The notes under the pieces: model-generated
What the model saw: the letters and a program-made list of their open reading frames with translations, nothing else
What the model was told of the DNA's origin: nothing
Databases searched by the model: none
Position numbers and translations under genes: made by a program
In this document: one piece after another, positions 3,486 to 61,270 of the stretch
Layout of the letters: each line of letters starts with the position of its first letter
How positions within the stretch are numbered: position 1 is the stretch's first letter
DNA from: Methanoculleus marisnigri JR1
Lineage (GTDB): Archaea; Halobacteriota; Methanomicrobia; Methanomicrobiales; Methanoculleaceae
Length of the DNA: 64,000 nucleotides
NCBI RefSeq assembly: GCF_000015825.1
Contig: NC_009051.1
Location: 1,544,695-1,608,694 of the forward strand
Reading direction: 5' to 3'

Positions 3486-6329
3486 ATGATCGATAAACCT
3501 GGAAGGAAAGCACTATTTACCGGGCCGGTTGTGCCGGGTATGACAGGACAGGAACAGGGAGCAGTGGTACTGCCCGAGGCGATCGAGGCCGCACTCCACG
3601 CGGCGCTTGAAGGCGACGACTCCGTGCAGATCGACCTTGCCGGCGTTCCGGAGAGTTACCGGCCGCTGGCCACCTCGATCAACGCGCTGCTCGGGAAGAA
3701 GCAGGAGGAGAAGCAGCGCCTCAAGCACCGGCTGGACGAGGCAAAGATGCTTCTGAAGGGATCCGATACGATCATCCAGCAGAATCCGATGCCCATCCTG
3801 GTCGTCGATCCGGACTTCACGGTGACGATGGTAAACGCCGCCTACGCCGAGATGAGCGGAATCCCGATGGATCAGGTGCTCGGCAGGAGCCTGAAAGACT
3901 TCAGGATAACGTCCCAGAAGGGTTCCGGCCTCCGACAGGCAATCCAGGAGAAGAAGCGGGTGTATGCGGAAGTCGTCGTCGAACTCCCCTCGGGCACCCG
4001 TACGCTCGAGCAGTACGGCATCCCGCTGCTCGACAACGAGAACGCGGTCGAGAGCATCCTCATGGTCTACAACGACCTCACCGAAAAACGGCAGGAGGAG
4101 GAGGAGATCCAGAGGATGCAGCATCGCATCGACACGATGATCAAACTGAATCCGCTTGCCATCGCACTCCTCCGCCCCGACAAGAGCCGGATCGACATCA
4201 ACGACGAGTATGCCCGGATGTGGCGCGGCACCCGCGAAGAGACCCTCGCGAAGAAACTCTACGACTACGACATCACCGTCATCGACGGCGACCACTTCTA
4301 CGCCTGCTACGAGACGAAGAAACCCGCCCGGACGGACGTCATGGTCAAGTGGCCCGACGGCGTCAGGAAATACCTCACCCTGAACGCCATCCCCATCCTC
4401 GATGCGAACGGCGAGATCGAGATGGCCTTCTACGTCTGGAACGACTGGACCGACCTCCAGAATAAGAAGGAAGAGGCCGAGAAACTCAAGCACAGCGTCG
4501 ACACGATGATCAAGCAGAACCCGCTTGCCATCGCAACCCTCCGCGCGGACAAGAGCCGGATCGACATCAACGACGAGTACGCCCGGATGTGGCGCGGCAC
4601 CCGCGAAGAGACCCTCGCGAAGAAACTCTACGACTACGACATCACCGTCATCGACGGCGAGCACTTCTACGCCTGCTACGAGACGAAGAAACCCGCCCGG
4701 ACGGACGTCATGGTCAAGTGGCCCGACGGTGTCAGGAAGTACCTCACCCTGAACGCCATCCCCATCCTTGATGCGAACGGCGAGATCGAGATGGCGTTCT
4801 ACGTCTGGAACGACTGGACCGACCTCAAGGAGAAGGAGGAGGAGGTCAAGGATACCGAGCACCGGGTCGACGCGATGATCAAGCAGAACCCACTCGCCAT
4901 CGCGACCCTTCGCCCGGACAAGAGCAGGATCGACATCAACGACGAGTATGCCCGGATGTGGCGGGGCACCCGCGAAGAAACCCTCGCGAAGAAGCTCTAC
5001 GACTACGATATCACCATCCTTGACGGCGATCACTTCTACACCTGCTACGAGACGAAGAAACTCGCACGGACGGACGTCATGGTCAAGTGGCCCGACGGCG
5101 TCAGGAAGTACCTCACCTTAAACGCCATCCCCATTCTCGACCGGAACGGCGAGATCGAGCTGGCCTTCTACGTCTGGAACGACTGGACCGAGCAGCGGGA
5201 GAGGGAGGACCAGATCCGCGACCTGATGGAGACCGCGAAGCGGGAGAGCGAGAGGCTTGGAGAGAGCGCCGGGGAACTCGGGAACGCGCTTGCCGCCATG
5301 GCAAAGGGCGACCTGACGGCGTTCGTAGAAGCAGAAACCGACGACCCGCTCCACCAGGTCAAGACCGACTACAACGCCTCGTTGACCGCTATCCGCGCGC
5401 TTCTCGCCGACGTGGCGAAAGCCGCTCAGCAGGTGGACATGACGACGAAGGAGGTCAGCAAGAGCACCGACGAGATCATCCGGGCGACGGAGCAGGTCGC
5501 CGTCTCGACGCAGCAGTCGTCCGAGGACGCACGCCGCCAGCTCGATAAGATCGAGGAGATCGGAACGGACGTCAACGACCTCTCGGCATCCATCGAAGAG
5601 ATTGCAAGCACGTCGCAGTCGGTCATGGAGCAGGCCTCGAAGGCTTCCAAGGAAGGAAACGACGCGGCCTCGCTCGGTGAAGTCGCGACGAACAAGATGC
5701 AGCTCGTCGAGGAGATCTCCAAGCAGACCGTAGGGGAGATCAGCACCCTCAACAACCAGATGCGGGAGATCAACAACATCGTCAAGTTGATCGCCGACAT
5801 CGCGAACCAGACCAACCTCCTCGCGCTGAACGCCGCGATCGAGGCCGCCCGGGCCGGGGAGCACGGCCGCGGGTTCGCCGTGGTCGCCGGCGAGATCAGA
5901 AACCTTGCCGGAGAGTCCAAGCGGGCGAGCCAGGATATCGAGGACCTGATCCGGACGATCCAGGCAAGCACCGAAAAGACCACCGACTCGATGCAGGCAT
6001 CCCACCAGGAGATCCAGGCAGGCATCGAGAGCGTCAACAAGGTCATCGTGGGCTTAAACCGGATCGTCAACAGCGTGGAAGTGGTCACCCGCGGCATCAG
6101 CGAGATCACCAAAGCCACCGAAGACCAGGCGGGCTCCACCAACAACGTCATGCAGAAGATGGACGAGTCCACCCACATGACCAAGGAGAGCCTGGACCGC
6201 ACCGAGGACATGGCTGCACTCGCCGAAGAGGTCAGCGCATCGACCGAGGAGGTCGGAAGCGCTTCCCACGAACTGGCAAGCATGGCCGAACAGCTCAAGA
6301 AGGTAATGATGCAGTTCAAGCTGAACTAG
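3486..6329 (+). CDS. Soluble methyl-accepting chemotaxis protein with four PAS domains
   Basis: A 947-residue chemoreceptor with no membrane segment. In order: an N-terminal region with a short coiled coil (about 70-90), a PAS domain (about 94-203), three further PAS domains that are near copies of each other (about 218-330, 341-453, 464-575), a HAMP-like helix region (about 590-650) and a long methyl-accepting coiled coil ending at 947. The hairpin tip that contacts CheA and CheW is intact around residues 775-812 ([20 protein letters not shown]). The PAS domains probably sense a cytoplasmic ligand or redox state. It is co-transcribed with parA, cheW and cheR; no cheA, cheB or cheY lies in this window, so the kinase must be elsewhere. 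Confidence 0.92.
4137..5220 (+). repeat. Three in-frame 369-bp tandem repeats encoding PAS domains
   Basis: The sequence starting at ATGATCAA recurs at 4137, 4506 and 4875, exactly 369 bases (123 codons) apart. The first two copies differ at only a few positions. The third is somewhat more diverged (for example [10 protein letters not shown] and KLARTDVM in place of [10 protein letters not shown] and KPARTDVM). This is recent internal duplication or ongoing gene conversion within the receptor gene. Confidence 0.95.
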
Positions 6330-19210: not shown

Positions 19211-19590
19211 CCGGTATACTGGACCGTGGGGCTATCGCCATTGGGGGAACGACGCTCCGAAGAACGACTGTCCGCAGGACAGGAGTTCGAGAAGACCGAA
19301 GGTCTTCGAGGAGCGGAGTTCGAGCACCGAAGGTGCGAGGTGGGGCTGACGGGGAGGGGGGTGCAGCCCCCCCTCCCCTGTCTCTACCCCGTAAGGCTCT
19401 ACCTGTAACCCCCACTCGAAGACCTTCGGTCTTCTCAAGCTCCGGACGTCCGTCCGTCGCACCCCGCCCGGCCTTCGGCCTCCTCATTCGCACCTTCAGT
19501 GCTCAAACTCCTGCTGTTCCAGCAGTCGTTCCCCGCCCCTCTGGAGCGGGGCAGTCACGGCGATATCCCCACGGAAGCCGTGAATGGGAC
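19211..19590 (-). repeat. Intergenic hairpin element, copy A
   Basis: A non-coding element between thiC and the gene at 19801. Near-perfect inverted ends CGTGGGGCTATCGCC (19225-19239) and GGCGATATCCCCACG (19559-19573) enclose about 320 bases. The core is a perfect hairpin, GGGGAGGGGGG (19351-19361) with its complement ending at 19378. Both arms carry small hairpins set in a constant frame, such as GGAGTTCGAG followed by AAGACC-GAA-GGTCTT or CACC-GAA-GGTG. The right arm (19381-19470), read on the minus strand, matches the left arm of copy B at 35206-35298. The remaining bases 19591-19800 hold no recognisable gene. Confidence 0.8.
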
Positions 19591-24324: not shown

Positions 24325-25422
24325 ATGGTTAAGACCACCGTGTCCGTAATTAAAGCAGATATAGGCAGTTTCCCGGGGCACTCCCGAACCCACCCGAAGA
24401 TCCTTGAGGTGGCCGCCCGGAGACTCAAGGAAGCGGAAGGAAGCATCCTCATCGACTCGTACGTCACCCACTGCGGTGACGATCTCGAGTTGATCATGAC
24501 GCACACCAAAGGGGAGGACAATGAAGAGATCCACAAGCTGGCGTGGGATATCTTCATGGAGTGCGCCGGACTCGCCAAGGAGATGAAACTCTACGGCGCC
24601 GGGCAGGACCTGCTCGGAGATGCGTTCAGCGGCAACGTCAAGGGGATGGGACCCGGTGTCGCCGAGATGGAGTTCGAAGAGCGGGGTTCCGACCCGATCC
24701 TGGTCTTCATGGCCGACAAGACCGAGCCGGGGGCGTGGAACTACTTCCTCTACAAGATATTCGCCGACCCCTTCAGCACGTCCGGCCTCGTCATCGACCC
24801 GTCGCTGCACGATGGGTTCACCTTCGAGGTCCACGACGTCATAAAGAAGCGCAAGATCCTCTTCAACACGCCCGAAGAGTCCTACAGCCTCCTTGCCTAT
24901 ATCGGAGCGCCGAGCCGCTACGTCATCAAGTACGTCTGGAAGAGAAACGGCCTGATAGGGGCGTCCACCAGCACCCAGCGGCTGAACCTGATGGCCGGGC
25001 GGTACGTCGGCAAAGACGACCCGGTCATGATTGTTCGGGCACAGAGCGGATTCCCGGCGGTGGGCGAGGTCATCGACCCCTTCAGGACGCCCATCCTCGT
25101 GGCCGGCTGGATGCGGGGCTCGCACCACGGACCGTTCATGCCCGTCGGCGTCTGCGACGCAAACTGCACCCAGTTCGACGGACCGCCCCGGGTCATCTGC
25201 CTCGGGTTCCAGGTCTGCAACGGAAAGCTGATTGGGCCTGCCGACATGTTCGACGACCCGGCGTACAACCGCGTCCGCGACCAGTGCTGCGAGCTCTCCA
25301 GCTTGCTCCGGGCTCACGGGCCGTTCGAACCGCACCGCCTCTCGCTCGAGGAGATGGAGTACACCACCCTCCCGGGCGTCGAGAAGCAGTTCAAGGATCG
25401 CTGGGAAGACCTTCCCGAGTAA
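24325..25422 (+). CDS. fbp: Bifunctional fructose-1,6-bisphosphate aldolase/phosphatase
   Basis: A 365-residue type V FBPase, the ancestral gluconeogenic enzyme of archaea. One active site condenses triose phosphates and then dephosphorylates the product to fructose 6-phosphate. The start TTVSVIKADIGSFPGHSRTH, the metal-binding Asp-rich loops and GRYVGKDDP near residues 225-233 are diagnostic; Tyr227 and Lys230 of that motif correspond to the aldolase Tyr and Schiff-base Lys of characterised enzymes. The length is normal. It is monocistronic, with its own TATA box and a strong GGTGATT ribosome binding site. Confidence 0.97.
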   Translation: MVKTTVSVIKADIGSFPGHSRTHPKILEVAARRLKEAEGSILIDSYVTHCGDDLELIMTHTKGEDNEEIHKLAWDIFMECAGLAKEMKLYGAGQDLLGDAFSGNVKGMGPGVAEMEFEERGSDPILVFMADKTEPGAWNYFLYKIFADPFSTSGLVIDPSLHDGFTFEVHDVIKKRKILFNTPEESYSLLAYIGAPSRYVIKYVWKRNGLIGASTSTQRLNLMAGRYVGKDDPVMIVRAQSGFPAVGEVIDPFRTPILVAGWMRGSHHGPFMPVGVCDANCTQFDGPPRVICLGFQVCNGKLIGPADMFDDPAYNRVRDQCCELSSLLRAHGPFEPHRLSLEEMEYTTLPGVEKQFKDRWEDLPE

Positions 25423-25526
25423 CTTTTTTTTATTGCCGGCGGTTGTCCGCGGCGCGTTATCCGTCTCAGTCGTTCGTGAATAGCCCCGGCCGCACCGCAC
25501 GGTGCCTTCCGGAACTAAACGGCCCA

Positions 25527-25700
25527 TCGGCAGCAGCACCTAACGGGGCCGCACCTCCCACCGACCGCCGGAGGCGGGCGCTAGTCGGCAGCAGCACCTA
25601 ACGGGGCCGCACCTCCCACCGACCGGCTCCGACGGTCGCTAGTCGATAGCGACACCTGCCGGTGCCGCGCCTCCTACCGACCGGCTCCGACGGTCGCTAG
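25527..25700 (+). repeat. Three 58-bp tandem repeats upstream of the Sm-like gene
   Basis: Units at 25527-25584, 25585-25642 and 25643-25700 have exactly 58-base spacing, and a fourth begins with TCGGCC. Units 1 and 2 are identical over their first 41 bases and differ in a block near the end: unit 1 has CCGCC-GGA-GGCGG, while units 2 and 3 have GACCG-GCTCCGA-CGGTC. Each block can still form a stem. Unit 3 also changes the first half to CACC-TGCC-GGTG. The preceding bases 25423-25526 contain a degenerate, partly similar GC-rich stretch and no gene. Confidence 0.9.
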
Positions 25701-25747
25701 TCGGCCATAGGAAAACTTAATGCATGAACATAACCATATAAGAACAG

Positions 25748-25984
25748 ATGGTTAATGGTATCGTACTCCCTGTGAAGAAGGTTTTTTCGCTCGTAGACTC
25801 TAAAATCACTGTTGAGATCAAAGATGACAGCAGGAAACTCCAGGGACGGCTCGTGGCGGTGGATGAACACCTGAACCTGCATATGGACGAGACCACCGAG
25901 TATACCGGGGAACAGCGGGGCCGCACCCTCGGGACCGTCGTCATTCGCGGCAACAATATCCTGACCATTGCGCCCCTGCTCTGA
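25748..25984 (+). CDS. Sm-like (Lsm) RNA-binding protein
   Basis: A 78-residue Sm-fold protein that is expected to form a hexameric or heptameric ring binding U-rich RNA. The Sm1 motif is visible in VEIKDDSRKLQGRLVAVDEHLNLHMDE in outline, and Sm2 in VVIRGNNILTIAP, ending at the C-terminus as usual. A short A/T-rich stretch with AACTTAAT near 25715 probably acts as the promoter, giving a very short leader. It is followed five bases later by a winged-helix gene in the same transcript. Confidence 0.92.
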   Translation: MVNGIVLPVKKVFSLVDSKITVEIKDDSRKLQGRLVAVDEHLNLHMDETTEYTGEQRGRTLGTVVIRGNNILTIAPLL

Positions 25985-25989
25985 TAGCC

Positions 25990-26328
25990 ATGTCCGACCA
26001 GGAGGAAGAAGCATTCAAGGTTATCCAGTCCCATCGTCAGGGGGTTCTCCAGAGCGAACTCTGGAAACTTCTCGATATCGACAGCAGGAAGTGCTCGAGG
26101 ATCGTGAAGCGGCTGCTTGATGCCGGGTTGATCGAACGCATCGAGTTTCGCAGCGACGGCATCAAGACTTACCTGTTGCGCGCGAAGAAACGCGCAATCG
26201 ACCCCTGCATCATCCTTGCGGGAGGAGAGGTTCTCCCGTGCATCGGCTGCGATCAGGAGTGCACCCCGGAAGAATGCGCACTCCTTCTCGACTGGATGTA
26301 CCAGCTTGCTCTTGAAGAGTATCAGTAA
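25990..26328 (+). CDS. Winged-helix protein with C-terminal cysteine cluster
   Basis: A 112-residue protein. Residues 5-65 form a MarR-like winged helix (GVLQSELWKLLDIDSRKCSR, then LLDAGLIERIEF). Residues 73-96 carry Cys73, Cys84, Cys87, Cys91 and Cys96, a pattern that could hold an iron-sulfur cluster or zinc. A winged helix followed by a C-terminal metal cluster recalls TFE-beta/RPC39, but this protein is shorter and I cannot confirm the relationship. It is co-transcribed with the Sm-like gene, which suggests an RNA or transcription role. Confidence 0.7.
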   Translation: MSDQEEEAFKVIQSHRQGVLQSELWKLLDIDSRKCSRIVKRLLDAGLIERIEFRSDGIKTYLLRAKKRAIDPCIILAGGEVLPCIGCDQECTPEECALLLDWMYQLALEEYQ

Positions 26329-35033: not shown

Positions 35034-35467
35034 TCGTTCAACCCCTTGCACGGATTACCATCGGCTTCGCACCTTCGATACTCTAGCTCCGTTTCTCCGA
35101 ACCATCGCTTATCGCCACGCACTGCCCCCGCCCCCCGGGGCGGGGTGCGACGGGGCCATAGGGCCGGAGCATGAGCACCGAAGGTGCGGAGGAGGAGCGC
35201 GAAGCGCGGGCGGGGTGCGACGGACAGACCGTCCGGAGCTTGAGAAGACCGGAGGTATTCGAGTGGGGGTTACAGGTGTCCTTTTGTGCGGTAGAGACAG
35301 GGGAGGGGGGATGCTCCCCCCTCCCCACCTGACGGTGGTCGAACTCCGTTCCTTCGCACCTCCGGTGCTCACGCTCCGGTTCTAACGAACCGTCGCGCTT
35401 CGGAACGTCGTCCTCCCCGTCAGCCCCACCCCCAACGGCGATATCTCCTCGAAAGCCGTGCATGGGT
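35034..35467 (+). repeat. Intergenic hairpin element, copy B
   Basis: A non-coding element between the DUF92 gene and the minus-strand gene ending at 35636. The core hairpin GGGGAGGGGGG (35300-35310) pairs with 35316-35326. The right end GGCGATATCTCCTCG (35438-35452) followed by GCCGTGCATGGG matches the right end of copy A. The left end is less clear: CCCCTTGCACGG near 35042 and CTTATCGCCA near 35108. Hairpin modules such as GGAGCATGAG-CACC-GAA-GGTG and GGAGCTTGAG-AAGACC-GGA-GGTATT fill the arms. About 90 bases on the left of the core match copy A in inverted orientation. Bases 35468-35635 show nothing recognisable. Confidence 0.75.
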
Positions 35468-38934: not shown

Positions 38935-39056
38935 CTGTACAGTGGACTGTGGGGATATCGCCACGGAGGGGGGTGGGGACAGGGGAGGGGGGAATACTCC
39001 CCCCTCCCCGTCAGCCCCTCCCCCAATGGCGATATTCAGTGGAAATCCGTGTACAG
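38935..39056 (+). repeat. Intergenic hairpin element, copy C (compact form)
   Basis: A 122-base element bounded by CTGTACA (38935-38941) and TGTACAG (39050-39056). Moving inward, ATATCGCCA (38955-38963) pairs with TGGCGATAT (39027-39035), then G-runs pair with C-runs, and the core GGGGAGGGGGG (38982-38992) pairs with 38999-39009. The whole element can fold into one long hairpin with small internal loops. It lacks the extra modules of copies A and B between its ends and so looks like the minimal form. Confidence 0.85.
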
Positions 39057-39240
39057 GATATGAGCGTCTCGAATTGCGACTGACCTGTGAGTCTGATGAA
39101 TAGGACTTCCGGAGCATGAGCCCCCTCAGGTGCGAGTGACGACCGTCGGAACGACAGGGATCCGAGAAGTTGTCAGGCTTCGCTGTGCGACGGTTCGCAG
39201 AACCGGAGTTTGAGCATCCCTACGTGCGAACTACGTAGAC
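39057..39240 (+). repeat. Hairpin modules flanking copy C
   Basis: Two modules of the same type as in copies A and B lie outside the inverted ends: CGGAGCATGAG with CCCC-CTCAGGTGCGAG near 39110-39137 and CGGAGTTTGAG with CATCCCTACGTGCGAAC near 39204-39231. A stretch around 39141-39200 contains CCGTCGG and TGTGCGACGG, also found around copies A and B. No gene is present before the MATE gene end at 39289. Confidence 0.6.
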
Positions 39241-61077: not shown

Positions 61078-61270
61078 CCTCCGGCAGGGAGACACCGCTC
61101 ACACCCCCGGTGCTCACGCTCACGATGTTCGCGGTCCGACGGCCTCCGGCCCTCTCAAACTCCGGCCCTTTGGCCGTCACTGTTCGAAAATTGCTGCGCA
61201 ATTTTCTCGAACTCCGCCTGCCCCCCTGGGGCACGCGTCGTTGCTCGCACCTCCCGGAGGTTATACACCT
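61078..61270 (-). repeat. Cluster of hairpin modules, locus D
   Basis: Read on the minus strand, CGGAGTTCGAG is followed by AAAATTGC-GCA-GCAATTTT (arms 61187-61194 and 61198-61205), CGGAGTTTGAG by AGGGCC-GGA-GGCC, and GCGTGAG by CACC-GGG-GGTG. The flanks match the modules in copies A and B while the stems differ. The core hairpin and inverted ends are absent. The remaining bases to 61516 show no gene. Confidence 0.6.

Follow-up and report, generated by a model that had tools for sequence, protein, structure and literature searches.

The window analysed here is a stretch of 64,000 nucleotides of the Methanoculleus marisnigri JR1 genome (G000:C1:1544695-1608694; genome size 2.48 Mb). It contains fbp (24325-25422, plus strand), the gene of a fructose-1,6-bisphosphatase (PF01950 FBPase_3, E 2.8e-178), followed on the same strand by lsm (25748-25984), encoding an Sm-like protein (PF01423 LSM, E 6.5e-19), and, immediately 3' of lsm, by a gene for a winged-helix protein with an HTH domain match (25990-26328). 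Between fbp and lsm, three 58-nt units are arranged head to tail without gaps (25527-25700; TRF score 253). The array starts 104 nt downstream of the last fbp codon (the stop at 25420-25422), and its end is 47 nt short of the lsm start codon (ATG at 25748). An earlier reading made from the sequence only had described three exact-period 58-bp repeats behind the fbp stop and about 45 bases ahead of an Sm-like gene, all of which was confirmed by the measured distances and the domain matches. Neighbouring units are identical at 52/58 and 49/58 positions, while the best pair of adjacent 58-mers anywhere else in the window reaches 29/58. Elsewhere in the window, the gene at 3486-6329 encodes a protein of 947 aa of the PAS and methyl-accepting type, in which a PAS repeat of 369 bp (123 aa) occurs about three times in near-identical form (4129-5191).

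Each unit consists of two hairpins, A and B. In unit 1 (25527-25584), hairpin A (25533-25552) is imperfect with 6/8 pairs and hairpin B (25558-25584) has 9/12 pairs and the loop GGA. Unit 2 (25585-25642) has the same numbers of pairs (6/8 and 9/12), with the interior TCC replacing GGA in hairpin B, and the promoter-side unit 3 (25643-25700) has 7/8 and 10/12 pairs. A constant GTCG is located just after unit 3 (25700-25703). In an alignment of 20 units, the genus-wide unit reads TCGGCA, hairpin A (GCGGCACC TGRC GGTGCCGC), ACCTC, hairpin B (CYACCGACCGCC GNA GGCGGTCGGTRG) and TCGG. The units abut without spacers, and the combination of identical repeats and unrelated spacers that characterizes CRISPR was not found.

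The fbp end and the lsm promoter

A candidate fbp terminator (25402-25431, plus strand) is composed of a short hairpin (25402-25417) and a run of eight T (25424-25431), which starts one base past the fbp stop codon. Runs of 4 to 9 T within 25 nt of the fbp stop were present in 26/26 loci, and the terminator-like hairpin before the T tract (one site compared to a shuffle mean of 0.4) is a weak signal, non-significant alone. Because of the T runs and the weak hairpin, the proposal that the array is a transcribed 3' region of fbp is doubtful.

Upstream of lsm, a conserved promoter block GGAAAACTTAATG (25710-25722, plus strand) begins 9 nt downstream of the array end, and the conserved stretch extends to the ATG (25710-25747). 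Its core TTAATG is found 31-32 nt ahead of the lsm ATG in 30/30 loci, array-free loci included, and the last GTCG lies 15-17 nt before TTAATG in 15/15 carriers of the array. From the spacing, the GGAAAACTTAATG block would be the BRE/TATA region of a nearly leaderless lsm. Since promoter block and array 3' edge hold constant distances from the lsm ATG, the array is placed upstream of the putative lsm promoter, in the spacer after the predicted fbp end. The alternative suggestion of an lsm leader was not sustained, because the array ends upstream of a promoter block which keeps its distance from the ATG even where no array exists. In four genomes (G007, G019, G002 and G023; loci L021, L025, L034 and L035), the lsm promoter block is kept with no fbp upstream in the examined stretch.

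Occurrence of the array in relatives

Named relatives whose Lsm is 94-99% identical belong to Methanoculleus, e.g. M. sediminis (L114) and M. chikugoensis (L124). An Lsm of this kind was detected in 32/35 genomes of the genus (E <1e-40), and 30 of these 32 lsm loci were examined (all but G001 and G020). For the tree, the 25 loci with fbp directly upstream of lsm were used; no fbp was found in G007, G019, G002 and G023, and G009 was omitted due to an insertion. In that locus (L036, 143-1327, minus strand), a TnpB-type gene with the domains OrfB_IS605 (PF01385, E 2.5e-31) and Cas12f1-like_TNB (PF07282) is located inside the fbp-lsm stretch, beside a remnant hairpin.

The array is present in 15/25 comparable loci and absent in 10/25, with 1 to about 8 units per carrier locus as read from the sequences. 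The comparison proposed by the sequence-only reading thus revealed both conservation and variation of the array, contrary to the second of the two observations which that reading had named as refuting it. The carriers G016 and G013 branch first in the tree, with moderate support and a long outgroup. At least six gains or losses are needed, a number not exceeded in 26/500 label shuffles, and good support is limited to 7/23 inner branches. An array that was present in the ancestor and lost later in some lineages is likely on this tree, and the array is probably old. G011 is sister to G003 and G015, both of which are carriers; it has no unit and retains just the 3' edge GGTGGTCGG, spaced as in the carriers, apparently as the scar of an array loss. 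Units resemble each other at 0.84 within and 0.79 between arrays; the values for first-first, last-last and first-last comparisons are 0.77, 0.81 and 0.78. Position-matched orthology of first and last units, considered as an arrangement, gave no clear pattern.

The gene order is more widespread than the array: fbp precedes lsm in Methanoregula, Methanolinea and others (54/80 loci with at least 57% fbp identity, Methanoculleus counted in). A model built from 20 array units (R1) was run on another 65 lsm loci (L129-L193, a few of them labelled Methanoculleus) and gave no match below E 0.9. A DNA query of 221 bases matched one place each in 7/41 genomes.

R1 was also applied to whole genomes with a threshold of E 0.01, scoring at most 150 candidates per genome, so that weak copies may be missed. 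At least 57 matches were obtained in 18/35 genomes of the genus, 36 of them at fbp-lsm in 15 genomes and 21 elsewhere. Among the matches listed for these 35 genomes, all that are better than 1e-4 sit at fbp-lsm. The 21 off-site matches (E 1.6e-4 to 0.009) are distributed over 10 genomes of the genus. Dispersed copies of the 58-bp unit, as expected for a REP or BIME element, were accordingly not found among the strong matches listed.

Inverted hairpin interiors

The sequence-only reading had assumed that one block of the unit was exchanged for a different self-complementary one. Copy 1 does differ from copies 2 and 3 in the hairpin B block, but a foreign stem is not needed: the loop GGA of copy 1 is represented in copies 2 and 3 by its reverse complement TCC, and the 19-nt block of copy 1 matches that of copy 2 at 13/19 positions directly and at 16/19 after inversion. 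Between copies 1 and 3, the 25-nt block is nearly neutral (18 direct vs. 19 inverted). An inverted match better than the direct one was also observed between G003 and G015 (18/23 direct, 21/23 inverted) and in hairpin A of G012, where units 1 and 2 carry the loops TGGC and GCCA (11/16 direct, 15/16 inverted). In three control pairs, whose loops do not differ in orientation, the direct match was favoured. The swapped blocks are therefore best read as inverted hairpin interiors, with few bases behind each inversion. Template switching within a hairpin is described to yield inverted loops and compensatory paired changes (PMC8794818), and that article terms its own evidence for stem maintenance circumstantial.

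RNA folding and stem pairing

Folded as RNA, the three units of the window gave z values of +0.91, -1.94 and -1.11 against shuffles and are thus no better, or slightly better, than shuffled sequences; the whole array reached -1.91. The last, promoter-side units of G012, G006 and G008 fold strongly (z -7.48, -5.73 and -5.64).

Over 20 units, 85.9% of the stem cells pair, compared to 81.8% in shuffles. Cells changed on both sides number 19 (6.7 in shuffles, 0/500 as high). The counts of pairs with a double change (6 vs. 3.4, reached by 25/500 shuffles) and of further pair types (16 vs. 14.7, 129/500) are weak signals, the latter not enriched. Stem B has on average 11.4/12 pairs in seven promoter-side units, compared to 8.9/12 in a set of ten inner ones (p 0.011, with no correction for kinship). 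This comparison leaves aside the single-unit loci, all units of G008 and G015, the remaining inner units of G042 and the partial first unit of G050. In the fbp-lsm stretch of G016 (L023), a single unit is present, whose hairpin B stem is extended to about 20 bp by a self-complementary 17-nt insertion.

The better-kept stem B on the promoter side is the strongest indication of a function and would point to selection. In a boundary element, hairpin B next to the promoter, either as a cruciform or in read-through RNA, would stop or trim fbp transcripts and shield the lsm promoter, with symmetry alone being selected. The position of the array, with the fbp T tract on one side and the lsm promoter on the other, fits such a role, as do the excess of double-sided changes and the strong last-unit folds of the three relatives. 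It is set against the ten loci which lack the array and have an unchanged promoter block, the T tract that already follows fbp in all 26 loci, the poor folding of the window's own units and the lack of enrichment of further pair types. Paired changes are, moreover, also expected from template switching alone. A boundary element as the main explanation is thus considered unlikely.

Dispersed hairpin modules

The array had been likened to hairpin modules dispersed in the window, a likeness which held up at the level of layout. A second model (R2) was built from 11 dispersed modules, three of which stem from window positions 19265-19528. R2 matches were found in 33/35 genomes of the genus, with at least 100 copies in 19 of them and at least 164 in M. 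marisnigri. In a sample of the order, all 14 Methanoculleus genomes but only 9/66 others had matches, the latter with 1 to 8 each. Within the window, R2 modules are located at 19265-19309 (minus strand), 19416-19459 and 19488-19528 (both plus), at five sites within 35067-35395 (35067 plus, 35148 minus, 35218 minus, 35323 plus and 35354-35395 plus), at 39077-39229 (minus) and, as weaker matches (E 0.0012 to 0.028), at 61099-61240 (plus). Composite intergenic elements at 19215-19590, 35067-35460 and 38940-39230 hold hairpin modules between TATCGCCA-like inverted-repeat ends and might be MITE-like carriers of the modules. Outside the window, a 13-copy tandem array of the dispersed module with a period of 46 bp (G000:C1:1429838-1430407, L054-L066) lies inside a composite intergenic element; its second hairpin is either GGTCCTTCGGTCC or GGTCCTAGCGGAAC, which are interchangeable.

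Array and modules share one layout, i.e. hairpin A, N5, CTCC, hairpin B, GTCG and N6. CTCC-hairpin-GTCG occurs nine times in the window compared to a mean of 0.63 and a maximum of 3 in 60 shuffles, and seven other tetramer pairs occur 0 to 2 times. Array unit 3 accounts for one of these occurrences, and two others (42675 and 48581) look like chance. As this layout was named after both kinds of element had been seen, the model searches are the better test. Seven off-site R1 matches were inspected, all of which are modules of the form TCG-N-[GCACC..GGTGC]-N5-CTCC-[hairpin]-GTCG (one with CCCC instead of CTCC) and are also R2 modules at identical places (7/7). They amount to about four independent cases, since three look orthologous and two are copies within one genome. 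Conversely, R2 weakly reaches array units in L030 (E 0.0019), L020 (0.0086 and 0.011), L015 (0.02), L016 (0.037) and L022 (0.038).

In M. marisnigri itself, R1 detected no dispersed module of the window better than E 0.05; its best value there (E 0.05) was at an unrelated place, and a module was overlapped at E 0.87. R2 had no match to the window's array units up to E 1. To judge from these searches, mutual recognition of the two families has been lost in this genome. The failure to cross-match would be expected if array and modules were unrelated, GC-rich hairpins arising easily and the common layout being due to chance or a shared mutational bias, and one R1 match outside the genus (G031, one of 66 genomes; E 1.4e-4, equal to the best off-site matches, under stricter filters) fits the same idea. 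Such convergence is improbable considering that off-site R1 matches are found in 10 genomes of the genus compared to that single one, for which the filters were stricter, that the seven inspected off-site matches are all R2 modules, and that array units of L030 and L020 are within the reach of R2. Common descent of the array and the dispersed modules is inferred from these matches.

The Y1 transposase (PF01797, RAYT) was not detected in M. marisnigri. In the genus, PF01797 matched in 7/35 genomes at E 0.001, six of them above the cut-off, and among the 15 array carriers only G050 has a match, which is below the cut-off. Mobilisation by a RAYT was therefore rejected for M. marisnigri.

Discussion

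Two further explanations assign a molecular partner to the array. One of them is an RNA element to which the Sm-like protein would bind, be it a structured 3' UTR of fbp, a leader of lsm or a small RNA; the closeness of the array to lsm speaks for it, as do the units with two strong hairpins that some relatives have. Archaeal Sm proteins favour U-rich RNA. No run of more than two T is present in the window from intergenic position 30 to the promoter, and the binding to the Sm-like protein that the sequence-only reading had envisaged was not borne out, the window array being without a U-rich stretch. In addition, the array is located upstream of the conserved promoter block, its units fold weakly in the window, and no Rfam covariance model matched in the window at the gathering score or in 25400-25800 up to E 1. 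An Sm-protein-binding RNA is hence retained as a very unlikely rival. An operator, in which a dimeric regulator would bind the palindrome, perhaps the HTH protein of the gene downstream of lsm (25990-26328), is hardly credible: in all 15 carriers the palindrome stops about 10 nt short of the promoter block, but descent also predicts a fixed edge, the arm sequences in the alignment differ between species while the symmetry stays, and 10/25 loci have no palindrome.

The explanation which we favour, with somewhat better than even confidence, is a locus-fixed, tandemly amplified palindromic repeat that is related in layout to the dispersed modules and has been shaped by slippage and template switching. 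Copy number would shift by slippage or unequal exchange among the 58-bp units. A replication template switch inside a hairpin would invert its interior and so give rise to the exchanged blocks, and such a switch may also copy one arm onto the other, whereby pairing is kept while the sequence drifts. The array with its position, its occurrence in relatives, its varying copy number and the layout it has in common with the modules are direct observations; slippage and template switching are the presumed mutational mechanism, and a strong function of the array is presumably absent. If there is any function, it would most likely be at most a modest one, with the promoter-side hairpin B weakly separating fbp transcription from the lsm promoter. 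A more far-reaching version, according to which Methanoculleus harbors an undescribed, layout-defined family of two-hairpin repeats that flip their hairpin interiors by template switching and need no Y1 transposase, with the fbp-lsm lineage fixed and the symmetry of its promoter-side hairpin selected as a transcription boundary, is decidedly doubtful as a whole.

Among known repeats, the bacterial REP/BIME palindromes, for which GTAG- and CGTC-tagged super-families are described (PMC3733652), are similar in being short extragenic palindromes with many copies, in forming hairpin clusters and in having stems that vary while pairing holds. The repeats reported here differ in being archaeal, in their two-hairpin unit with CTCC and GTCG and in the lack of a Y1 transposase in M. 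marisnigri; furthermore, no unpaired GTAG or CGTC tag was recognised, and the array as such is restricted to a single locus. By reading, GTAG is seen in many array units but inside stem B, and the dispersed modules end with CCGTCG, in which CGTC is half paired. Prokaryotic minisatellites (PMC6749651) are also non-coding tandem arrays of variable copy number, but the unit of the array contains two palindromes and belongs to a dispersed type, and the array is homologous across species. The closest counterparts are the dispersed Methanoculleus modules recognised by R2, which have the same layout of hairpin A, N5, CTCC, hairpin B, GTCG and N6 and also exist in tandem versions. The array is distinguished from them by a longer stem B, a period of 58 instead of 46, other spacer letters and its restriction to one site. 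No description of a Methanoculleus palindromic repeat family was found in the literature searched, most subscription journals being outside its scope.

The hairpins at the fbp-lsm locus form a clear orthologous set with several copies per genome, so that inverted loops and copied arms can be traced there, and the set of arrays allows selection and template switching to be tested against each other as the source of paired stem changes. Together with the dispersed modules, it draws attention to an abundant and apparently undescribed palindromic repeat family in an environmentally important genus of methanogens.
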